The notes under the pieces: generated by a model
What the model was told of the DNA's origin: nothing
Databases searched by the model: none
What the model saw: only the letters and a program-made list of their open reading frames with translations
Origin: Ignavibacteriota bacterium
GTDB taxonomy: Bacteria > Bacteroidota > Ignavibacteria > UBA10030
DNA: 36,561 nucleotides
Reading direction: 5' to 3'
Assembly: GCA_022616555.1 (NCBI GenBank)
Contig: JAKEEG010000059.1
Location: forward strand, 1-36,561
Program-made: the position numbers and the translations under genes
Shown here: piece after piece, positions 10,163 through 18,566 of the stretch
Layout: each line of letters starts with the position of its first letter
Numbering within the stretch: position 1 is the stretch's first letter

Positions 10163-11016
10163 TCCTCTTCGCTTTCATCACCCTCTTCGCCTTCGTTTTC
10201 CATCATCTCGAGCAGCTCGGTCATCAGCTCGACATTGTTCACGTTGCCTTCTTGTTGGTACGCATTGATGAGATTGCGCAGCACGCGCGCGATGATTGTA
10301 TGCGCATCGCACTCCAGCGGTAGCAAATCCTTAATCGGAACGGGTGGACCGTTGTTCCACGAGACAGCTTCCTGCTCGCCGAGGCACCTGCCTCCGTTAT
10401 AGCAATCAACAATGAATGAGCGTTTGCTTGTAACTGCGCGGGCGAGAAAGTGCCCCGGGAAATTAATCCCCTCTACATCGTATTGCAACCGCTTGCCGAC
10501 GAGAATGTACACGCATGCGAGGCTGATGGGAATGCCGCGTTTTTCTTCAATGACATAGATCAGGTTGCTGTTGATCGGGTTGTAGTAATCAGCGTCGGCG
10601 CCTTTAAGCCGGCGAACCTTAAAGAGAAAATGCGCGAGTGTGAGAGCATCCTGTTTCTTTGCCGTTTCGCGAAATTCCTCAGCCAGTTCGTCCAGCAACG
10701 TTTTGAGCTGCACGGGGTAGCCGCGGCCATATTGATATTCCGCCAGTAAACCCATAGCGATCTCGAGTTTCTCTTTATCGTTCTCGAGGTCGAACCAACT
10801 GTGCCATGCCTCGCGCAGCCAACGCCCGTTGTATTCTTCGAGCAAGTTGGTCATTTTCTGCTGGAGGTCATCGCTGACGGGGATATTCAACTTAGCAAGC
10901 TCTCGCTTGAGCGAGGGACCGAACGACGAAAGCTCCTTCAGCACGTTCTCCTGCACCACGGGCGAATCATCGTCCAGTAGTTTCAGCAGATGCGGTAAAT
11001 TTTTTGGATTCGGCAT
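10159..11016 (-). CDS. SirB1-like transglutaminase-fold protein with N-terminal HEAT-like region
   Basis: The protein has an N-terminal helical region (MPNPKNLPHLLKLLDDDSPVVQENVLKELSS, about 1-60). The SirB1 N-terminal domain with transglutaminase-like fold follows: YYNPINSNLIYVIEEKRGIPISLACVYILVGKRL, then a histidine in GINFPGHFLARA and FIVDCYNGG. The catalytic triad is only partly conserved in this family, so activity is uncertain. The last 15 residues are mostly glutamate. The open frame continues upstream to 11136, but the helical repeat begins at ATG 11016, which I prefer; its ribosome site is weak. No neighbour points to a pathway. Confidence 0.8.
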   Translation of the reverse strand: MPNPKNLPHLLKLLDDDSPVVQENVLKELSSFGPSLKRELAKLNIPVSDDLQQKMTNLLEEYNGRWLREAWHSWFDLENDKEKLEIAMGLLAEYQYGRGYPVQLKTLLDELAEEFRETAKKQDALTLAHFLFKVRRLKGADADYYNPINSNLIYVIEEKRGIPISLACVYILVGKRLQYDVEGINFPGHFLARAVTSKRSFIVDCYNGGRCLGEQEAVSWNNGPPVPIKDLLPLECDAHTIIARVLRNLINAYQQEGNVNNVELMTELLEMMENEGEEGDESEEE

Positions 11017-11082
11017 AACGAACAGTGACGTTCCCTTGTCTCGGAGAATGATATCCCGACTTTCGATGAAAGTCAAATTCAA

Positions 11083-11112
11083 TTGTGTCTCGACTCCCCG
11101 CTCTGCTATAAT
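11083..11112 (+). promoter_or_regulatory. Possible sigma-70 promoter with long leader to the 11354 gene
   Basis: TTGTGT (11083-11088) and a perfect TATAAT (11107-11112) are 18 bases apart, reading forward, upstream of the divergent lipoprotein gene. The leader would be about 235 bases and contain the hairpin/direct-repeat element at 11138-11249. Only one box is ideal, so this is a low-confidence call. Confidence 0.3.
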
Positions 11113-11137
11113 AGAAATCCACATACTGAAAATCAAG

Positions 11138-11249
11138 AGAAGTGAAAATATCGTTTATTTGTGGCGTCAGGAGTTTCCTCCTGATGCACAGCCCTTTCGG
11201 TCAGGACGTAAGTCTTGACCGCACTAAACATAGAAGTGAAAATATCGTT
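11138..11249. repeat. Two hairpins flanked by an 18-bp direct repeat
   Basis: AGAAGTGAAAATATCGTT occurs at 11138-11155 and again exactly at 11232-11249. Between them are a perfect 7-bp hairpin (TCAGGAG-TTTC-CTCCTGA, 11167-11184) and a 10-bp hairpin with one G-T pair (11198-11221, loop GTAA). The layout resembles a small inserted palindromic element with a target duplication, or a structured leader. Confidence 0.65.
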
Positions 11250-11353
11250 AAACCGTTAATTGTTCAAAATGTCCAATAAACACAACAACATTTTAGCCTG
11301 TAGCGCTGACTCAAATTTTCGTATTTTTCCGCTTACTGAAGAAAGGAACAAAC

Positions 11354-12187
11354 GTGGAATCCCTTACAACCGTACGCCAACCGGACAAAGCCACTATGCG
11401 TATTTTCGTGAGTCTCACACTATGTCTCATTGTGAGTCTCGTTATTGCCGGTTGTTCCGGCATACAGCTCACCAGCAATTTGCGCCAATCGCCCATACAG
11501 ATCGATGGCAAGGTCGGCGATTGGGACCGGCTCCCCTCGTACAGTGCGCGGGAGGGAATCAGGCTGAGCATTACGAACGACCGCGAATATTTTTATATAC
11601 TCTTTGCTACGCACCAACGCGAAGTAGCGCGCCAAGTGGTGATGCGCGGCTTTACGCTATGGTTCGACCCGAACGGCGGAAGCAAGAAAACCATCGGGCT
11701 CAACTATCCTCTCGGCGTGATGGAGCCGGGCATGCGCGAGCGCATGGGCGACATGGATCCATCGGAGCGCACGGACATCCGCGAAGATTTAATGAACCGC
11801 TCGCTGCAGGAGTTTGAATTTTTAGGTCCCAACGAAAACGACCGCGTCCGAGTATCGAAAAACGAGGGCAAGGGCGTTGAAGTCCACGTGAGCGATGAGA
11901 GCAATCTGTTCGTGTATGAAGCGAAAATCCCGCTCATCTTTTCCATGCAGCATCCGTATGCGATTGAAACGAGTACTGGCTCAACAATCGGACTGACGAT
12001 TGAAGTTGGCAGCCGCGAGATGTTCATGCGCCGCATGGGTGGCATGGAGGGCGGTAGACCCGGCGATGGCGGCGGATTCTCCGGTGGCAGAGGCGGCCGT
12101 ATGCCTCCCGGCGGCGGCCAGAGACCGTCAGGAACGCAGAGAATGCAGTTCGAGCCGATTGAGCTTACAGTGCGCTTAGCGGAATAA
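11354..12187 (+). CDS. Lipoprotein with CBM9/DOMON-like domain and Gly/Arg/Met-rich tail
   Basis: This 277-residue protein starts at GTG 11354, with AAAGGA 7 bases upstream; ATG 11396 is an alternative without a ribosome site. A lipobox VIAGC marks lipid attachment. The mature part has a strand-rich segment (IQIDGKVGDWDRLPSY..., about 45-215) typical of the CBM9/DOMON-like folds that bind sugars or heme in exported proteins. The C-terminal 60 residues are low in complexity, rich in Gly, Arg, Met and Pro. The ligand cannot be read from the sequence. It is a single gene, likely transcribed from a promoter within the 11017-11353 region. Confidence 0.65.
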   Translation: MESLTTVRQPDKATMRIFVSLTLCLIVSLVIAGCSGIQLTSNLRQSPIQIDGKVGDWDRLPSYSAREGIRLSITNDREYFYILFATHQREVARQVVMRGFTLWFDPNGGSKKTIGLNYPLGVMEPGMRERMGDMDPSERTDIREDLMNRSLQEFEFLGPNENDRVRVSKNEGKGVEVHVSDESNLFVYEAKIPLIFSMQHPYAIETSTGSTIGLTIEVGSREMFMRRMGGMEGGRPGDGGGFSGGRGGRMPPGGGQRPSGTQRMQFEPIELTVRLAE

Positions 12188-12229
12188 TGCGTAGTATTTT
12201 CATACATTGTAGTCAAGTATCTACTTGCC

Positions 12230-12278
12230 GATGCCCGCTCATCCTTCGACAGGCTCAGGGCTCAGGATGGCGGGCATC
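12230..12278. repeat. Hairpin with CCTTCGACAGGCTCAGG-type core
   Basis: Arms GATGCCCGC...ATCCT and AGGATG-GCGGGCATC pair at the two ends. The loop carries CTTCGACAGGCTCAGG. The same core (CCTTCGACAGGTTCGGG) occurs in another hairpin at 14743-14775, so this is a dispersed palindromic repeat. It may also act as a barrier between two convergent genes. Confidence 0.7.
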
Positions 12279-12301
12279 AATATCTTAAGTAATAGTACGA
12301 C

Positions 12302-12817
12302 TTATCCAGCGGCGGCGTGCTGCCTGCGCCTCTCAAGAATCATAATGTACCACACGAGCATGACGAGCCACGGGAGTTCCTTGTAGGAGCTTCCGCGTCG
12401 CCGCAGGTCGACGTTGTATGTGCCGCTGAAGAATCCTTTCCGCTTCACTTCCGCAAGCATCTCGCCCGTTTCCGTTTGGAGACTGAATTTCCATCCCCAG
12501 AGATCTGTTGCCAGCAGCAGTTTTTCCCCGCCGGGCAATTGGATCTCGAATTTTTTGCCCCATCGTTTTCCTTCGAACGAAACGATCGGTTGCTCATCTT
12601 CGCACTCGAACACGGAGATGGTTGTTTTCCAGATCCCCTTGCGCGTGAATTTCCAGCAGCCGTCTGCACTTTCGGCCCGCGCCTCCTCGCTGAAGAGGCG
12701 GGGTAGGGTGAGCTTCGCAATGACGGTGCTGCTGTTGCGCAACTCAAACACTTGTTTGAAAATACTCGGCTGCACCCATTGTAAATCGCGGCCTATGACT
12801 GATTCGATTGTTCGCAT
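12302..12817 (-). CDS. Unknown protein, possible scramblase/LURP-like fold
   Basis: I do not recognise this protein with confidence. The likely start is ATG 12817 (MRTIESVIGRDLQWVQPS), giving 171 residues; the upstream 20 codons consist of a pyrimidine-rich intergenic stretch. The body is a series of short strands with aromatic residues (WKFTRKGIWKTTISVFE, IVSFEGKRWGKKFEIQL, WGWKFSLQTETGEMLAEVKRKGFFSG). That pattern resembles the tubby/scramblase/LURP-one beta-barrel fold, a weak analogy only. The end is hydrophobic (LPWLVMLVWYIMI), then basic, so a C-terminal membrane anchor is possible. It is downstream of the SPFH pair on the same strand. Confidence 0.6.
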   Translation of the reverse strand: MRTIESVIGRDLQWVQPSIFKQVFELRNSSTVIAKLTLPRLFSEEARAESADGCWKFTRKGIWKTTISVFECEDEQPIVSFEGKRWGKKFEIQLPGGEKLLLATDLWGWKFSLQTETGEMLAEVKRKGFFSGTYNVDLRRRGSSYKELPWLVMLVWYIMILERRRQHAAAG

Positions 12818-12884
12818 AAGTTTTTTCTGAACCCATCCCCCTGCCCGTTCCGAGGGTGGGAGAAGGGAGTAAAGCATCGCTTTT

Positions 12885-12912
12885 GTAGGGGTTCAATATA
12901 TTGAACCCCTAC
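12885..12912. repeat. 28-bp perfect palindrome
   Basis: A perfect inverted repeat with half-site GTAGGGGTTCAATA and no spacer lies between the reverse genes at 12302 and 12926. There is no T-run. It is probably a dispersed extragenic palindrome; the TTGTAGGGGT edge also appears once at about 22231. Confidence 0.8.
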
Positions 12913-12925
12913 GATTATTAGATAG

Positions 12926-13114
12926 TTATCGTCCACCGGGCTTCGCTTTCTGTGAAGCAGCCTGCTGTTTCGTGCGCCCCGCTTTTTTTACTGCATCGGT
13001 CAGAAGAAATTCTATCTCCGCGTTGACGCTGCGCAGGTCGTCCGCTGCCCACTTCTCCAAAGCCTCGTAGAGGTCCTCGTCCAGTCGCAGCAGGAATTTC
13101 TTCTTTTCACTCAT
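12926..13114 (-). CDS. Small ribbon-helix-helix (Arc-like) DNA-binding protein
   Basis: This 62-residue protein has an Arc/MetJ-like ribbon-helix-helix: a basic strand [16 protein letters not shown] (residues 4-19), then a helix and a second helix [18 protein letters not shown] (about 29-46), with a basic tail. Such proteins bind DNA as dimers of dimers at palindromes. Its ATG overlaps the stop of the SPFH gene (ATGA), so the two are translationally coupled. A concentric dyad over the shared promoter at 14004-14041 is a good candidate for its target, giving autoregulation; that link is inferred. Confidence 0.85.
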
Positions 13115-13986
13115 TGATACAGCGTCCCTGTGTTAATGATGGGCTGGGCTTCCGATTCGGATACGAGCGCAACCATTAGGTTATTGACCATTGTTGCCTT
13201 CTTGTCTTCGTCAAGCTCGACAATTTTGTTTTCGCTCAACATGCGCAGGGCGTCATCTACCATGCCGACTGCGCCTTCGACTATTTTGCGGCGCGCGGCG
13301 ATAATTGCCTGCGCTTGCTGGCGACGCAGCATTGCCTGGGCAATTTCCTGTGCGTAGGCGAGGTGGCTTATACGCGACTCGGTGACTTCCACGCCGGCAA
13401 CTTCAAGCCTGGTTTGGAGTTCGCGCTTCAGATGGTCGGCGATTTCCTGCGGATTACCGCGCAGGGAAGCCAAGTTCTCATCGCCCCCGTCGTAGGGATA
13501 TTCACTGGCGAGACCACGGATCGCTGTCTCGCTCTGGACGGCGACAAACTCCTCGAAATTCTCCACGTCGAACAGAGCTTTTGCGGAATCCACTACACGC
13601 CACACCACTACGGCGGCGATTTCAATCGGGTTACCGTGGAGGTCGTTGACCTTGATTTTTTCACTGTTGAAGTTGCGAATCCTCAACGAGACATGCTTGG
13701 CAATGGTGAAGGGATTGACCCACCAGAAGCCATCGTTTCGCACAGAGCCGACGTATTTACCGAAGAGTATCAGTACTTTTGACTCGTTCGGCTGAACGAT
13801 GAAGAAGCCGAACAGATAGGTGAACGTGAGAAGAAACAGAGGAATCTCAACCCACATATAGATTCCAGCTGCGTTGACAGCCATGAAGTTAATAAGCCAT
13901 GCATTGGCAGCCAAGAGCAGAACAAATCCGAATGCTGCAACGTAGCCATTCATCCGTTTGCCGGTGGTTTCAGTGAGGTTTTGCAT
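13111..13986 (-). CDS. SPFH/band 7 domain membrane protein
   Basis: This 291-residue member of the stomatin/prohibitin/flotillin group starts at ATG 13986, with AAGGAG 7 bases before it. Two hydrophobic stretches lie at the N-terminus (about 15-35 and 40-65). The SPFH domain follows ([26 protein letters not shown], then [40 protein letters not shown]). The helical region [31 protein letters not shown] is typical of the family. SPFH proteins form ring-like scaffolds in membranes and often affect proteolysis or lipid domains. A strong promoter is 30 bases upstream. Confidence 0.93.
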
Positions 13987-14003
13987 AGTGGTGCTCCTTG
14001 AGT

Positions 14004-14041
14004 AAGTTGATAGCACAATGATATCATAATAATATCAACTT
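14004..14041. promoter_or_regulatory. Concentric three-block dyad (operator candidate)
   Basis: AAGTTGATA (14004-14012) and TATCAACTT (14033-14041) are perfect 9-bp inverted arms. Exactly between them is the perfect palindrome TGATATCA (14019-14026), separated by 6 bases on each side. All share one centre at 14022/14023. The dyad covers the -10 box and spacer of the SPFH promoter, as expected for a repressor site. Confidence 0.65.
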
Positions 14042-14046
14042 GTCAA
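14018..14046 (-). promoter_or_regulatory. Sigma-70 promoter of the SPFH/RHH operon
   Basis: On the reverse strand TTGACA (14041-14046) and TATCAT (14018-14023) are separated by 17 bases. Transcription should start near 14011, about 25 bases before the ATG at 13986. Confidence 0.8.
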
Positions 14047-14290
14047 GGGAAATTTTAACAAATCGCACGAATGTTGTAAAATGCTCGTCAATACTGGATT
14101 TCTTAGCTGCTGAAGATCGGTTTTCTGACAGAAAGGGCGCACCGATAAGTATGCATCCGAAGGCGATTCGGCGGCTCAGCATCATAGGGGTGAATGGCTG
14201 AGGAAGGTAAGGCGACTCATTTCCTTCCGATTGGGTTTATGACGTGGACGATATGTTCAGGGCTGTACTGCTTGCGTTCTCTTTCTTCAT

Positions 14291-14461
14291 TATCCTAAAA
14301 CGGAGGCGCTGCGTCGGGCAAATAAATAGATAGACAGGGCCCGGACGCGAAAGAAGGGGTACTTCAACGCCTCCGAGTCAGGATAGAACGTTTTTGTTCT
14401 CGTCGCACGCGAGATGGCGCCACCTCGTTCGTACAGCGTACCGTCATAATGGCAGTGAATT
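14291..14461 (-). ncRNA. Candidate structured RNA
   Basis: An ideal promoter (14468-14496, reverse) is followed by a highly foldable sequence without a convincing gene. From 5' to 3' on the reverse strand: small hairpins (GAGGTG-GCGC-CATCTC type near 14417, AGAAC..GTTCT near 14393), then a long hairpin at 14291-14385. That hairpin has a 6-bp stem (14380-14385 with 14291-14296), a 4x4 internal loop, an 11-bp stem with one G-U (14365-14375 with 14301-14311) and an inner stem of 8 bp with one bulge. No T-run follows. It does not match 6S, tmRNA, SRP or RNase P signatures I know. A 68-codon frame also crosses it, but its possible starts fall within the promoter. Confidence 0.35.
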
Positions 14462-14467
14462 TGTCCC

Positions 14468-14496
14468 ATGATAACACGCATTTCATTAAATGTCAA
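14468..14496 (-). promoter_or_regulatory. Sigma-70 promoter (reverse strand), downstream product unclear
   Basis: TTGACA (14491-14496) and TATCAT (14468-14473) are exactly 17 bases apart, identical in both boxes to the SPFH promoter. The upstream sequence is A/T-rich. Transcription would start near 14461 and read through the folded sequence down to 14291. Confidence 0.65.
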
Positions 14497-14837
14497 GAAG
14501 AAAATATTACAATAATTATTTATTTTTTACATTTTAATAGCTAAATTCTTGTGAAATATGGGGTTACGGCTTCGGGTAAGGCAATAGGACGCGAAAGGAG
14601 CGGATACAAAACCGGGTAGAAGCGGATTTAGGCAAGTGTGAAGTCGGAAGGGCGAACTAAGAAGTAGATGGGTGGTGAGGAAATGGGGCTTGGAATATGG
14701 GATGTAAGACACGAGGAAAACCAATAGAACAGAACACGGAACCCCGCCAAGCCTTCGACAGGTTCGGGTGGCGGGACACAAAAAAATGGAGGCGGATGTG
14801 TCGGATAAGAGCGGATTATACTGTTGGGCGCGCAAGT
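14497..14837. other. Intergenic stretch without a gene
   Basis: No supported gene is present; the frames on the reverse strand look random. It starts with an A/T-rich tract (14497-14540). It contains four GCGGAT words (about 14603, 14626, 14791 and 14811) and the palindromic repeat at 14743-14775. Confidence 0.6.
14743..14775. repeat. Hairpin with CCTTCGACAGG core, second copy
   Basis: CCCGCCA (14743-14749) pairs with TGGCGGG (14769-14775) around a loop carrying CCTTCGACAGGTTCGGG. It shares this core with the repeat at 12230-12278. Confidence 0.65.
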
Positions 14838-14873
14838 GAAAAAAAGGGCTTGCACAAAAAATGCAAGCCCTTT
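14838..14873 (-). terminator. Strong intrinsic terminator of the cysteine-rich peptide operon
   Basis: A 12-bp perfect stem (14862-14873 with 14843-14854) with a 7-base loop is followed on the reverse strand by a run of T (complement of the A-tract at 14839-14845). It lies 28 bases after the stop codon of the peptide gene. Confidence 0.92.
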
Positions 14874-14901
14874 CGTGTTACATAAATACCGGTTGTTGCG
14901 T

Positions 14902-15102
14902 TTAATCACATCCCTCAGCACACCAAGTGGTACATGACGGGGTGTAGCTTGCGCTACATCTGCACGACACGGGCGCAGGTGGATTGCATGAGTTGCATGT
15001 AGTCATGCTGCAATTACCAATGACCATTTCTGCGCTGACAACGCCAACAATCATCACCGAGAAAACGGCGATGACAAAAAGCAACATCAGAGCGCGTTTC
15101 AT
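14902..15102 (-). CDS. Exported cysteine-rich peptide
   Basis: This 66-residue precursor has a clear signal peptide (basic MKR, a hydrophobic core and VVSA, cleavage after Ala24). The predicted mature peptide of 42 residues holds eight cysteines at 31, 36, 39, 47, 49, 57, 61 and 65 (spacing C4C2C7C1C7C3C3C), with little charge and a central NPPAPVSC. No cysteine is in the signal. This is the pattern of a compact disulfide-rich peptide. I know no family with this spacing. It is the last gene of an operon with a thioredoxin-like and a MauE-like protein and directly precedes a strong terminator. Toxin, signal, metal carrier or redox substrate are all open. Confidence 0.8.
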   Translation of the reverse strand: MKRALMLLFVIAVFSVMIVGVVSAEMVIGNCSMTTCNSCNPPAPVSCRCSASYTPSCTTWCAEGCD

Positions 15103-15131
15103 AAAGCCTCCTAAAAAATTGTTTGAAAAGG

Positions 15132-15701
15132 TTAATTATGTGTAACTAAAGCGACCTCTGTAAGTTCCGGAAGTTGCTCTTTTTTTAATCTGCCGAGTAT
15201 AATTTTTTCCACCGAACCGTAATTATTTCTCATGATGGTTTTAGGTACAGTCGTACCTTTTATTTGTTCTATGAACCATTCAACGTCGCCGGGGAGAAAC
15301 ACGGGGAAATTGATTTCATGTTCTACGAGGTAAGCGGTTGTATTTTCGAGCGGATCTAACGAGATTCCAATAACGGAATAGCGTGTGTTATTTTCGTTTG
15401 CCATTTGTTTCCAGAATGGCAGGCTATCTTTACAGAATGGACATCTTGTCGTGAAGATAAACACCAGTTGCTGGGAGCTGTTCGTATCAGGTACCGCGCC
15501 TTCACGGACAGGCTCAAGCTCGCCGTAGTAAAAGTAGTCTCCTTCCTTGAGTTGTTCTTTCTGTGCTGCGACTGAAGGGTTTTTTAATTCATTATTTTGC
15601 CTTGCCAGAACCACCACTTGCAACGCAAGGACTATGACAGCGATATGCAAGAATCCAATATACAGGTTTTTGCTGGAGAACATCTCTTTGGAAAATTTCA
15701 T
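15132..15701 (-). CDS. Membrane-anchored thioredoxin-like (TlpA/MauD-like) protein
   Basis: This 189-residue protein has one N-terminal membrane helix (about 13-34) and then an exported thioredoxin-fold domain. The active site is CPFC (Cys87, Cys90) after LVFIFTTR, and the expected cis-proline is in TTVPKT (Pro153). The loop IGISLDPLENTTAYL fits the AhpC/TlpA branch. Such proteins reduce, oxidise or shuffle disulfides outside the cytoplasm. In the methylamine dehydrogenase cluster MauD plays this part next to MauE. It lies 12 bases after a MauE-like gene and 29 bases before an eight-cysteine peptide, so the peptide is the likely client. Confidence 0.88.
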   Translation of the reverse strand: MKFSKEMFSSKNLYIGFLHIAVIVLALQVVVLARQNNELKNPSVAAQKEQLKEGDYFYYGELEPVREGAVPDTNSSQQLVFIFTTRCPFCKDSLPFWKQMANENNTRYSVIGISLDPLENTTAYLVEHEINFPVFLPGDVEWFIEQIKGTTVPKTIMRNNYGSVEKIILGRLKKEQLPELTEVALVTHN

Positions 15702-15713
15702 GGTGAGCTCCGA

Positions 15714-16154
15714 TTACGAGTTTGTTGCTGGATGTTTTTGTATCTCCTCATTCGAGTTGCGTTCAACGCGTTTCAACATGAGCATTGATAGCCCGAACAA
15801 AAGAAAGTTTCTCACAAAGAACCACTCGTCCACCCTGGACTCCAACAACTCACCAAAACACCCGCAGGAAGTGTCCGAGCCTGCATTAAGTCCGCCTAGC
15901 ACGAATGCAATCAAAAAGAAAAACGCTGAGATGAGTGCGACAGCCGGAAGTGCCCTGCCGCTAAAGAGAACGCCGGCAAGAAGGCACTCCGTGAGCGAGA
16001 GAGCAATCACTGCGCCGTGAGAAATCAAACTACCAACCCCAAAAATCTCAGCGAAAAAACTTGCCGCGTCTTGCGGTGAAAATAATTTCGAGGCTCCGCT
16101 CACCAAAAAGACGAGCGCCAAGGCGTACCTGATAATGAAAGCCGCTTTATTCAT
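15714..16154 (-). CDS. MauE/DoxX-like redox membrane protein
   Basis: This 146-residue protein has four hydrophobic segments (about 5-24, 43-65, 68-90, 108-126). The N-terminal motif VFLVSGASKLFSP and the SCGCFGELL motif (Cys97 and Cys99) are the marks of the MauE branch of the DoxX superfamily. MauE is needed with MauD for forming the disulfides of the methylamine dehydrogenase small subunit. The Cys-Gly-Cys pair probably passes electrons between the thioredoxin-like partner and the membrane, perhaps to quinone. It is the first gene of the three-gene operon. The C-terminal tail is polar. There is no clear ribosome site before ATG 16154. Confidence 0.87.
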   Translation of the reverse strand: MNKAAFIIRYALALVFLVSGASKLFSPQDAASFFAEIFGVGSLISHGAVIALSLTECLLAGVLFSGRALPAVALISAFFFLIAFVLGGLNAGSDTSCGCFGELLESRVDEWFFVRNFLLFGLSMLMLKRVERNSNEEIQKHPATNS

Positions 16155-16228
16155 ATCAACAAATTCTTACGCTTGCAAAAACTACAGTACGGCAGAGAGC
16201 AAAGCAATCAAAAAGCATTGCCGAGAAC

Positions 16229-16272
16229 GGTTGGTTGTCTTGGTTGCTACAAACGGTTGTTTATTTTGGTTG
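16229..16272. repeat. Five GGTTG repeats upstream of the MauE-like gene
   Basis: GGTTG begins at 16229, 16233, 16242, 16255 and 16268, the last three 13 bases apart. They lie 75-120 bases upstream of the MauE-like start, where an activator would bind. Confidence 0.4.
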
Positions 16273-16301
16273 GCAAAAACGGGAGAGCTGTGAGGGGGAT
16301 G

Positions 16302-16629
16302 TTAAGGTCTGTGATTATCTCTATAGGCTTCCATGGTCATTCCGGTTACTTTTTTAAAAGTTTTTTGCTCCGGTGTCTTCCCGCTCGAAGCCTACCTCGA
16401 AGCAAATCTCGAAACATTTCATGTCCGGATTTTCTTTGAGAAGTTGTTGTGCCTTGCGCACTCTTGTTTCGATGATGAAGGCGTGAAGATTTTTCCGTTC
16501 CTTGCGCCGGAAATCCTTGCGCAGAGTTTCGACGGATACGTCAAAATGTTCGGCGATATCTGCGAGCGCGTTAACGCCGCGGATATTTCCTTCGACCCAT
16601 TTTTTGATGTCGGTGGTATTTATGCCCAC
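16302..16629 (-). pseudogene. AraC-type HTH protein interrupted by a +1 frameshift
   Basis: The first frame (GTG 16629 to TAA 16354) codes 91 residues that cover most of an AraC-type DNA-binding domain: LADIAEHFDVSVETLRKDFRRKE, then IIETRVRKAQQLLKENPDMKCFEICFEVGF. It stops at the sequence AAC TTT TAA. Skipping one T restores the family's normal end, KKVTGMTMEAYRDNHRP, to a stop at 16302-16304. The distance from VGF to FKK then equals that of intact AraC proteins. Cause: mutation, a homopolymer sequencing error, or a programmed +1 shift, since Phe-tRNA can re-pair on UUU. It lies 32 bases after the hybrid kinase on the same strand and is probably its output partner. Confidence 0.7.
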
Positions 16630-16661
16630 AACCTTCTTCAGTAGCTCGTTGGACTGTTACG

Positions 16662-18566
16662 TCATTTCCCAAACATCTCCGCCAACATTGTTAGCAGCTT
16701 CTCGGCCGGGTAGGGCTTTTGAAGGAAGGCGATGTGCTCGCCGGATTCAAGCTCAATGACGTGCTCGTGGCGCAGGAAGCCGCTCGCCGCAATGATTTTA
16801 ACGGTGGGGAGAATTTTGCGTATCGCACGGATAGTTGCCATACCGTCCATGAGGGGCATATTCATATCACACACAATCGCGTTGATTTCGGATGAGTGCT
16901 TGGCGGTGACGACGACGCCTTCGGCGCCATCGGCTGCGGTCAGTACGCGATAGTTGAAAGATTCGAGCATCGTCTTGGTGATTTCAAGAATGCTCGTTTC
17001 GTCGTCGATAATAAGGATCGTCTGCCCGCTACCCGTCGGGAGGTCGCGAGATTCTCCTTCCGCTTTTTCCGTGGCGGCGGAGGGGACTGCAGGGAGATAG
17101 ACTTTGAATTCCGTTCCCTTGCCGACCTCGCTGTACACGCTCATAAATCCGCCATGGCTGCGCACGATGCCGTAGGAGGTGGAGAGTCCAAGCCCCGTGC
17201 CTTTGCCGGGTCCCTTGGTGGTATAGAACGGCTCGTAGATCTTTTCCAGCAAATGGTGTGGGATGCCGACACCGGTGTCGGCGACGATGAACATCACGTG
17301 AGGGCCGGGCTTGGCATCCGTATGGAATCGGGCGGTGTGCTCATCCACCACGACGTTGTCAATCGTGACGGTCAGCAGCCCACCAGACGGCATAGCGTCG
17401 CGTGCATTGACACACAGGTTCAGGAGCACCTGATTGAACTGGGTTGGGTCGCCAGTGGTATTCCACGGCTGTGAGGAGACTTTCAACTGGAAGTCGATGT
17501 TTTTCGGGAACGTCTCGCGCACCATCTGCTCGATTTCCAGAACGAGATGCTTGGGTTGGATTTCGATTTTCTTCCGCTCGACGCCGCGTGCGAAGGTCAG
17601 AATATGCTTCACCATATCAGCACCGCGCTTGGTGACGGCTTCGAGCATATTGACCATCTTCTGGTCTTCTTCCAGCGGTAATTTTTTTCGCAACAGCTGA
17701 AGAGCGATCATAATAGGGCCGAGCACGTTATTGAGGTCGTGCGCGATACCGCCCGCGAGCGTGCCAATGCTTTCCATGCGCTGGGAGCGGAGGAATTGCG
17801 CTTCCAGGCGTTTCTTTTCGGTGATGTCGGAATCCACAACATAAATCGATTGCGGATTTCCGTCGTCGTCACGCATCAACAGCCAGCGGCTATAGACTGT
17901 CAATTCGTGTCCGTCCTTTAGGATGTGCGTCCATTCTCCTTCCCATCGGCCGTGGGTGAGGACTGACTGGAGTGCTTCGTCGTACTGGACGGGCAGGTCT
18001 TTCTTGCTCAGCTCAGTCGAGCGTTTGCCGATGATCTCCTCTTTGGAAAAGCCGTAGAGCCGTTCGGAGCCCTTGCTCCAGAATTTGATTTTGCCCGTCG
18101 TGTCCATGACGATGATTCCATCTGGGTCGATATCCAACAACTCCGCTTGCAGGCGGATTTGTTCTTCGTTGAGGCGTTGTTTGTGGCGTTCTTCCTTGTC
18201 GCGCAAAGCCCTACGGACGACTGAGGGGAGCCGTGCGATGCGGTCCTTCAACACGTAGTCTGTTGCACCGCGTTTCAGCGCGTCGATGGCGCGTTCTTCC
18301 CCGATTGTTCCGGAGACGTAAATCATCGGGACGTGCGGCGATATTTCTTTTGCGAGCGATAATGCCGTCAGTCCGTCGAACGAGGGGAGATTGTAGTCGG
18401 AAAGAATGAGGTCGATTGCCAGCGTGCGCAGCGCCTCAAGGAATGTGTCACGCGAGTCCACGCGAACAATACTGCAGGCGATACCGTCCTCGGTAAGCAC
18501 CTGTTGAATCAGCTCGGAATCGTATTTATTGTCCTCAAGGTTGAGGATTCGTAACGGTTGAGTCAT
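16662..18566 (-). CDS. Hybrid histidine kinase, REC-PAS-HisKA-HATPase-REC
   Basis: The 634-residue protein starts at ATG 18566, with AGGGAG 6 bases upstream; the frame extends 7 codons further without a ribosome site. Domains: receiver 1 (about 3-120, NLEDN, acceptor Asp57 in ILSDYNLP), PAS (about 138-250), HisKA with His276 in GGIAHDLNNVL, HATPase with NLCVNARDAM, ADTGVGIP and GTGLGLSTSYG, and receiver 2 (about 515-634, LIIDDE, acceptor Asp567 in VCDMNMPLMDG). There is no membrane helix, so it is cytoplasmic. The leading receiver suggests it takes phosphate or signal from the upstream kinase/REC pair. Confidence 0.94.
   Translation of the reverse strand: MTQPLRILNLEDNKYDSELIQQVLTEDGIACSIVRVDSRDTFLEALRTLAIDLILSDYNLPSFDGLTALSLAKEISPHVPMIYVSGTIGEERAIDALKRGATDYVLKDRIARLPSVVRRALRDKEERHKQRLNEEQIRLQAELLDIDPDGIIVMDTTGKIKFWSKGSERLYGFSKEEIIGKRSTELSKKDLPVQYDEALQSVLTHGRWEGEWTHILKDGHELTVYSRWLLMRDDDGNPQSIYVVDSDITEKKRLEAQFLRSQRMESIGTLAGGIAHDLNNVLGPIMIALQLLRKKLPLEEDQKMVNMLEAVTKRGADMVKHILTFARGVERKKIEIQPKHLVLEIEQMVRETFPKNIDFQLKVSSQPWNTTGDPTQFNQVLLNLCVNARDAMPSGGLLTVTIDNVVVDEHTARFHTDAKPGPHVMFIVADTGVGIPHHLLEKIYEPFYTTKGPGKGTGLGLSTSYGIVRSHGGFMSVYSEVGKGTEFKVYLPAVPSAATEKAEGESRDLPTGSGQTILIIDDETSILEITKTMLESFNYRVLTAADGAEGVVVTAKHSSEINAIVCDMNMPLMDGMATIRAIRKILPTVKIIAASGFLRHEHVIELESGEHIAFLQKPYPAEKLLTMLAEMFGK

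Follow-up and report, generated by a model that had tools for sequence, protein, structure and literature searches.

A row of TGATATCA-type boxes over the promoter of an SPFH operon is a probable operator for the operon's own Arc-family ribbon-helix-helix protein

What is the palindromic element that covers the promoter of an SPFH gene in an Ignavibacteriota bacterium, and which protein reads it? The window considered here is the whole stretch of 36,561 nucleotides analysed from contig JAKEEG010000059.1. A sequence-only reading of this window had described the element as a concentric dyad bound by a ribbon-helix-helix (RHH) protein from the same operon, which would make the operon an autoregulated SPFH membrane unit. 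The features on which our argument depends are the following.

13111 to 13986, minus strand: gene for an SPFH/Band 7 membrane protein of 291 aa (Pfam Band_7, 89 bits, cut-off 23.6)
12926 to 13114, minus strand: gene for an Arc-family RHH protein of 62 aa (Pfam Arc, 29.8 bits, cut-off 20.4)
12302 to 12817, minus strand: third gene of the unit, 171 aa (homologues in the SPFH/RHH loci of relatives)
12885 to 12912, no strand: perfect 28-bp palindrome between the RHH gene and the third gene, an interspersed repeat
14041 to 14046, minus strand: -35 hexamer TTGACA (with the -10 hexamer, 11 of 12 consensus matches at a 17-bp spacer)
14018 to 14023, minus strand: -10 hexamer TATCAT, mostly within the central box (promoter-site search)
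14004 to 14041, no strand: the whole putative operator as a 38-bp dyad (pattern and palindrome searches)
14030 to 14037, minus strand: putative operator box 1, TGATATTA (from the sequence; a box lies at -11 in relatives)
14019 to 14026, minus strand: putative operator box 2, the central box, TGATATCA, an exact 8-bp palindrome (exact in 78 of 80 loci)
14008 to 14015, minus strand: putative operator box 3, TGCTATCA (from the sequence; a box lies at +11 in relatives)

The PDB sequences matched by the SPFH profile are those of QmcA and the stomatin PH1511. The predicted SPFH model has a mean pLDDT of 65.8, with two N-terminal helices (residues 14-38 and 41-58) at a pLDDT of about 90 and low confidence outside them. 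The ATG of the RHH gene overlaps the SPFH stop codon (ATGA), and the Arc domain match spans residues 1-47 of the RHH protein, the tails of which are variable among relatives. The RHH profile matched eight PDB sequences, all of them Arc entries or named as Arc family, and the predicted RHH monomer model is one long helix. The third protein matches five genes located between SPFH and RHH in many Ignavibacteria (25-33% identity, E about 1e-19 to 1e-32), and in close relatives (L004, L005) the third gene begins at the very end of the RHH gene. This protein has a hydrophobic PWLVMLVWYIMI stretch near its end; a profile search found no PDB relative and the window protein has no Pfam match, while its homologues have single weak matches in four Pfam families, the window protein in none of them. 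The RHH gene had been placed at the end of the operon. It does belong to the same operon, but it is not the end of the unit, because the 171-aa gene that belongs to the unit lies behind it. Among the nine window proteins scanned around the operon, no NfeD match was found, and PADLOC returned no match for the three operon proteins. The partner of the RHH protein is an SPFH protein, and an assignment to toxin-antitoxin or defence systems, which was considered, gained no support from the PADLOC search of these three proteins.

The 28-bp palindrome was considered as a second operator or as a terminator and was rejected in both roles, since the genome contains 11 interspersed copies of it at up to 3 mismatches (7 of them exact) and no T-run follows it; a 71-nt RNA around it folds with a z of -6.1. 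Elsewhere in the surroundings, positions 14902 to 16154 (minus strand) hold a possible small operon for a 66-aa cysteine-rich, secreted-looking peptide, a redoxin-like protein and a MauE/DoxX protein, with which an inverted repeat with a 12-bp stem (14843-14873) goes.

The pattern AAGTTGATA-N6-TGATATCA-N6-TATCAACTT is exact in the window at 14004-14041, with its centre at 14022.5, and the earlier description of 9-bp arms and an inner palindrome that share one centre across 6-base spacers was accurate. A search of the window for concentric palindromes with an inner 8 bp, outer arms of 9 bp or more and spacers of 2-12 returned this 38-bp dyad alone, and 60 Markov-1 windows gave none. With up to 2 mismatches allowed in the bacterium's own genome (2.99 Mb searched, 99 contigs), the three-box core matches at this operator only, and the two-box pattern matches at just two overlapping positions, both inside it.

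The dyad overlies a predicted strong sigma-70-type promoter of the SPFH-RHH operon. On the minus strand, TTGACA and TATCAT are separated by a spacer of 17 bp (14040-14024), and in relatives the positions from 20 to 16 bp ahead of the central box most often read TTGAC. From the coordinates of the two hexamers, the dyad therefore starts at the last base of the -35 hexamer and spans the spacer, the -10 hexamer and the expected start site. That it covers the -10 box and the spacer had been noted before, and both (14023-14018 and 14040-14024) do lie inside it; the range then given, 14004-14046, has the correct start, but the dyad ends at 14041 and the bases up to 14046 take in the -35 hexamer. Promoter-like sites number nine in 12200-14600 compared with 2.0 expected. 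A second promoter-like site with the same hexamers, TTGACA-17-TATCAT, occurs at 14468-14496 (minus strand), about 450 bp upstream of the putative operator, and no structural RNA was matched in Rfam at the gathering score within 11000-17000, a range that includes the region around this second site. The likely SPFH start is the ATG at 13986, which has AAGGAG ahead of it and is separated by 17 bp from the end of the dyad; the GTG at 14016, the upstream start of the longest open reading frame, is a less likely start than this ATG with its AAGGAG.

If the element is functional, it should accompany the gene pair in other genomes. Among the genomes of 61 relatives, the RHH gene is present in 30 and the SPFH gene in exactly those 30. 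The upstream motif is present in 26 of the 26 relatives whose upstream region fell within the short loci, mostly with 0-3 mismatches to the core (4 in L017). Three loci (L008, L009, L012) were left out of the 26 as truncated by the contig or short in flank, and L037, a longer copy of the L012 locus, carries the full three-box motif. In one relative, the RHH gene is followed at a distance of about 1 kb by a diverged second copy (G008:C15:95375-95533).

A search of genome contigs with the RHH profile gave at least 598 stretches, of which at least 574 were confirmed, and 80 loci were kept. Among the matches listed, an SPFH match lies upstream of RHH in 76 of these 80; in the other four (L059, L071, L081, L102), the stored sequence starts no more than 867 bases before RHH. 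Together with the earlier loci, 105 loci had both genes; removal of duplicates left 85, of which 80 had 60 bp or more of upstream sequence (L033, L062, L063, L107 and L009 were dropped). Loci L032-L111 were drawn by the RHH profile and are related, and therefore they are not independent draws. Among the matches listed, an exact TGATATCA occurs upstream in 78 of the 80 non-redundant loci with SPFH and RHH, compared with 0.59 expected by chance in these 80 upstream regions (maximum of 3 in 100 simulations). None of 74 control windows taken downstream of RHH has one. The exact box is missing from L020, which has TAATATCA in a three-box row, and from L076, a locus of the Calidithermus phylum with its box further upstream. 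The 80 loci span about a dozen phyla according to group labels that were sorted by hand from record titles, and titles of metagenome-assembled genomes (MAGs) may be wrong. Ignavibacteria/Bacteroidota account for 51 (unassigned ones included), and the others belong to Krumholzibacteriia, Bacillota, Armatimonadota, Cyanobacteria, Deinococcota, Schekmanbacteria, a deltaproteobacterial MAG, Acidobacteriota, Aminicenantes, Myxococcota and Actinomycetota.

The spacing of the boxes is conserved as well. When likeness to the box is measured by distance from the last exact box, the mean is 5.91 of 8 at both -11 and +11, the next-best offset is -5 (mean 4.17 of 8), and most offsets are near 2. A box of at least 6/8 stands at -11 in 63 and at +11 in 65 of the 78 loci, and a second box of this quality lies at plus or minus 11 bp in 74 of the 80 regions. 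These counts bear out the check that the sequence-only reading had named, namely the dyad upstream of SPFH-RHH pairs in relatives. However, the single symmetric concentric dyad was dropped, as its outer arms past TGATA vary among relatives and the 11-bp repeat is kept. Because this repeat is conserved and the arms beyond TGATA are not, we prefer three tandem boxes to a concentric dyad. As far as comparison of the loci can tell, the conserved unit is a row of 8-bp pseudo-palindromic TGATATCA-type boxes at a pitch of 11 bp, one turn of DNA, and the concentric dyad is the appearance of three such boxes in this window; its symmetry is exact, but it is not the conserved unit.

We extended the comparison to 296 genomes from what we take to be the window's own phylum, Bacteroidota in the wide sense. 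SPFH is present in 54 (E up to 1e-60) and RHH in 57 (E up to 1e-5), and all 54 are within the 57. Of 40 regions fetched, one repeats another (L151 and L069), and 39 have an SPFH match (tblastn); exact TGATATCA is found in 35 of the 39, and the remaining four (L119, L132, L133, L134) have a TAATATCA-type pair at the 11-bp pitch. In many of the more distant regions, from Bacteroidia, the boxes directly follow TATCTTTG-like text, which we take to be the Bacteroidetes -7 element. Thus, the promoter type changes and the operator does not. The three genomes with RHH only differ from each other: G288 has an SPFH match after all (L148), G246 (L147) has kept the operator and RHH with an SPFH remnant, and G095 has no SPFH match nearby and a box pair of 13/16 about 200 bp before RHH.

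In 111 genomes of Deinococcota, the Calidithermus phylum, SPFH is present in 49, RHH in 49 and both in 46; SPFH occurs without RHH in G368 (fragments), G448 and G449, and RHH without SPFH in G358, G366 and G433. Forty-seven loci were read (G368 and G401 were left out), and an exact box lies within 500 bp of the SPFH match in 20 of them. The other 27 comprise two loci without RHH (G448, G449), two of Calidithermus, 20 that are Thermus-like, two with degenerate pairs of 12/16 and 13/16 (L207, L213) and one without a box (L214/L228). In both Calidithermus loci, the box stands directly before the preceding hydrolase-like gene, about 1 kb upstream of SPFH; this gene, assigned by eye from a GSGPTDRDGN-like motif, has no Pfam match. 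Nine of the 20 Thermus-like loci (L217-L225, the genus presumed) were read with about 10 kb. In all nine, the operon strand carries a single TGATATCA, accompanied by a second box of 4-6/8 at +11 and placed just before an operon of ABC transporter ATPase, ABC-2 permease, SPFH and RHH (Pfam matches ABC_tran and ABC2_membrane in L217). TTGAC is present at the corresponding place in some Thermus-like loci, and in many loci of this phylum only two boxes are clear. No SPFH match was obtained in the G433 genome, in which a box lies 1.8 kb upstream of RHH and a further gene looks hydrolase-like by eye. The operator can head operons that start with an ABC transporter or hydrolase-like gene in other phyla.

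Does the row of boxes belong to SPFH or to RHH? The two genes come apart in a set of named plasmid and phage-labelled records. Ten of these records have both genes, and TRATATCA boxes lie upstream in eight; a Prevotella record has a TGATATTA pair at 11 bp, and a Rhizobium record (L164) has 7/8 boxes, TGATATCG and CGATATCA, that are 25 bp apart rather than 11. Six records have SPFH without RHH (D. proteolyticus, D. radiophilus, Pseudomonas sp. Leaf58, a P. aeruginosa plasmid, and Enterococcus- and Listeria-labelled phage records), and the upstream stretches read contain no box in any of the six, or in any of eight with G448 and G449; RHH absence in the six means absence from the stretch read, host chromosomes lying outside it. 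The four plasmids among the six also had no RHH match in the RHH search. The Enterococcus and P. aeruginosa records share upstream text, and therefore at most seven of the eight are independent. Conversely, seven RHH loci lack an intact SPFH gene, and an exact box is kept in four (G433, L109, L111, L147); in the last three, SPFH survives as a C-terminal piece, as a frame shortened internally or as a broken remnant, for which an assembly error of the MAG is possible. A fifth locus (G095) has the degenerate pair, and no box was found in the stretches read of G358 (L231, a weak RHH relative) or a transposase-rich T. thermophilus plasmid (L162/L230). Locus L226 (G366), which is cut by its contig, stands outside the seven, and L228 (G427), with complete SPFH and RHH, has no recognisable box in the stretch read. 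Boxes were thus absent from all eight SPFH-only loci and exact in four of the seven with RHH but no intact SPFH gene, and it is the RHH gene that they accompany, although with exceptions. The comparison thereby shows, besides the sequence, conservation and pitch of the boxes, their linkage to this gene.

Some of these records are of interest for their annotation or content. On the T. thermophilus plasmid (L162 1414-3677), the RHH relative follows a lanthionine-synthetase-like gene and an ABC ATPase gene, with no SPFH match. The RHH gene of Deinococcus sp. QL22 (L152 3238-3435) is annotated as 'PTS ascorbate transporter subunit IIC' and that of Qipengyuania (L155 3213-3404) as 'HicB family antitoxin', both of which are likely misannotations.

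The best Pfam family of the RHH protein is that of P22 Arc (PF03869), and the RSVN loop is common to both. In the alignment, position 10 of the RHH protein corresponds to Arc R13, the Arc RSVN loop is aligned, and the ribbon is KKFLLR here compared with QFNLR in P22 Arc. R10, R28, S29 and N31 do not vary across 124 loci, K5 is found in all but one of them (123), and L, V, A, P, I or M occupies position 8; outside the 124, the Bosea and Rhizobium proteins have a ribbon without KK. We assume roles as in Arc, with R10 as the DNA-facing arginine of the ribbon and RSxN as the phosphate-contacting loop, and by the same analogy positions 6, 8 and 10 should face DNA. Adjacent Arc dimers are about one turn apart, and the Arc operator consists of two half-sites. 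The putative RHH subsites are likewise neighbours on the same DNA face at intervals of about one turn, but there are usually three 8-bp boxes rather than two half-sites, and the setting is a bacterial chromosomal operon with an SPFH partner. The presumed reader and its candidate operator are both nearly constant across phyla.

It is highly probable, in our view, that the 38-bp element serves as operator for an operon that regulates itself: the operon's own Arc-family RHH protein would bind the boxes cooperatively and repress transcription. Binding by this RHH protein, cooperativity, repression and induction are steps that we infer, and they may proceed as follows. Each RHH dimer would read one TGATATCA-type box through its two-stranded ribbon, and three dimers would sit side by side on one DNA face, as the 11-bp pitch would permit, presumably in a cooperative manner. 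The bound dimers would span from the edge of the -35 hexamer to the start site and block RNA polymerase, and the operon of SPFH, RHH and the third gene would stay off until a signal, probably related to the membrane, removes the repressor. The autoregulated SPFH unit predicted from the window is supported by a conserved putative operator, with the difference that its linkage is to the RHH gene rather than to SPFH.

Autorepression by RHH proteins over promoters has tested precedents in RelB and TrcR, to which the present case is analogous as far as the available parts of the two reports go (PMC2812701, PMC10272220). In RelB/RelE, a small RHH protein represses its own operon with RelE as co-repressor, and the site of RelB comprises four 6-bp repeats, arranged as two adjoining half-sites of 12 bp, unlike the 8-bp boxes at 11-bp pitch and the SPFH membrane partner of the present operon (PMC2812701, in part). 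TrcR, an RHH protein of Anabaena that represses its own gene, has an 8-bp consensus site situated at the -10 or close to it, and its targets include a slipin gene (PMC10272220, in part).

The RelB/RelE case, in which an RHH repressor is tuned by its operon partner (PMC2812701, in part), invites a toxin-antitoxin-like reading: SPFH or the third membrane protein might bind RHH as a co-repressor or anti-repressor, and occupancy of the operator would then report how much SPFH is at the membrane or in what state it is. The one-to-one co-inheritance of SPFH and RHH in the closer relatives and, in many of these, the overlap of the stop of one gene with the start of the other agree with this circuit, and they make a direct SPFH-RHH link possible; moreover, the two N-terminal helices of the SPFH model, if both cross the membrane, would leave the SPFH domain in the cytosol. 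However, the operator and RHH persist where SPFH is absent or fragmentary (G433, L109, L111, L147), and because of this persistence SPFH is not required for upkeep of the operator. The absence of a PADLOC match for the three operon proteins and the variable RHH tails also speak against such a circuit, which we regard as rather unlikely, if worth keeping in mind.

The autorepression model is to be set against a second alternative, in which an unlinked regulator reads the boxes and RHH acts elsewhere. TrcR offers a precedent because it controls a slipin gene from outside that operon; by its number, the slipin gene alr0740 is at a locus other than that of trcR (all0854) (PMC10272220, in part). 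However, the boxes and RHH rise and fall together in many phyla, as the SPFH-only loci (0 of 8) and those without an intact SPFH (4 of 7) demonstrate, and the window's own genome has no second site at up to 2 mismatches. The TrcR site is TGTAGTAT-like, not TGATATCA, and TrcR is a global regulator of translation genes for which the available part of PMC10272220 notes no three-box row; a TrcR-type global regulon was rejected because its TGTAGTAT-like site differs from the TGATATCA boxes. We therefore find an unlinked reader very improbable. When 12 distant genomes were searched for the two-box pattern with up to 2 mismatches, 11 had it, nine of them at the operator of the SPFH operon only; Cyanomargarita has five matches at four places, and the Sporotomaculum genome has no match to this pattern. 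Among the 61 relatives, the 31 genomes without the gene pair contain 62 three-box matches (up to 3 mismatches) compared with 16 for the reversed pattern and 40 two-box matches (up to 2 mismatches) compared with 5, and the corresponding numbers in the 30 genomes with the pair are 58 compared with 9 and 74 compared with 2. The degenerate matches in pair-less genomes indicate that weak sites have a background above the reversed control, and because of them our confidence in the autorepression model is slightly lower.

That the element is a conserved promoter only (TTGACA-17-TATCAT), with the palindromes as a by-product, could be argued from the near-consensus -35 and -10 hexamers, fixed relative to the boxes in most Ignavibacteria, and from TTGAC in some Thermus-like loci, but this explanation is close to negligible, given that two of the boxes, box 1 within the spacer and box 3 past the -10, occupy positions without promoter constraint, and that boxes are kept in loci without a clear -35 at that place, such as those of Phytohabitans (L104) and Acidimicrobiia (L108), and beside another promoter type in Bacteroidia.

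Under the autorepression model, the operator may control more than SPFH. The genome of Carbobacillus altaicus (G347) has a second three-box site (L169 1546-1575) on a contig other than that of the SPFH operon, directly before an ABC transporter ATPase gene that is followed by permease-like frames (by eye). This second site and the ABC operons of the Thermus-like loci suggest that SPFH, an ABC-2 transporter and sometimes a hydrolase are one regulated membrane set. A bolder proposal, which we put forward as speculation and consider unlikely, is a pan-bacterial membrane-state switch with one operator code. The cytosolic side of SPFH would hold or release RHH, and membrane disturbance would derepress a repair set of SPFH and the third membrane protein, which in other phyla would also include the ABC-2 exporter and the hydrolase.

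NfeD is the known conserved partner in SPFH operons, and such NfeD-linked operons are also conserved around the SPFH gene, but the constant partner in the present group is RHH (PMC2636767, in part). The terms 'DNA-binding' and 'repressor' are absent from the main text of that paper as far as its available portion goes, and 'band 7' and 'ribbon-helix-helix' appear once each in the available portion of PMC3877243. In the one open-access paper in which 'SPFH' and 'ribbon-helix-helix' occurred together, the latter was in the reference list only, and among the papers listed from open-access PubMed Central we found no description of an RHH gene or a TGATATCA operator with this SPFH group. RHH autorepression is already known; what would be new, as far as these listings go, is a dedicated RHH repressor and a pan-phylum multi-box operator for an SPFH operon.

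If the model is true, SPFH operons of this group and the ABC transporter and hydrolase genes co-regulated with them could be found by sequence. The operator would also give a simple reporter for the inducing signal and a handle on the control of poorly understood membrane proteins. The operator sequence is almost constant from Ignavibacteria to Deinococcota and Actinomycetota, and the putative pairing of a ribbon ending in L-R with TGATATCA would represent an unusually constant protein-DNA code across very distant phyla.
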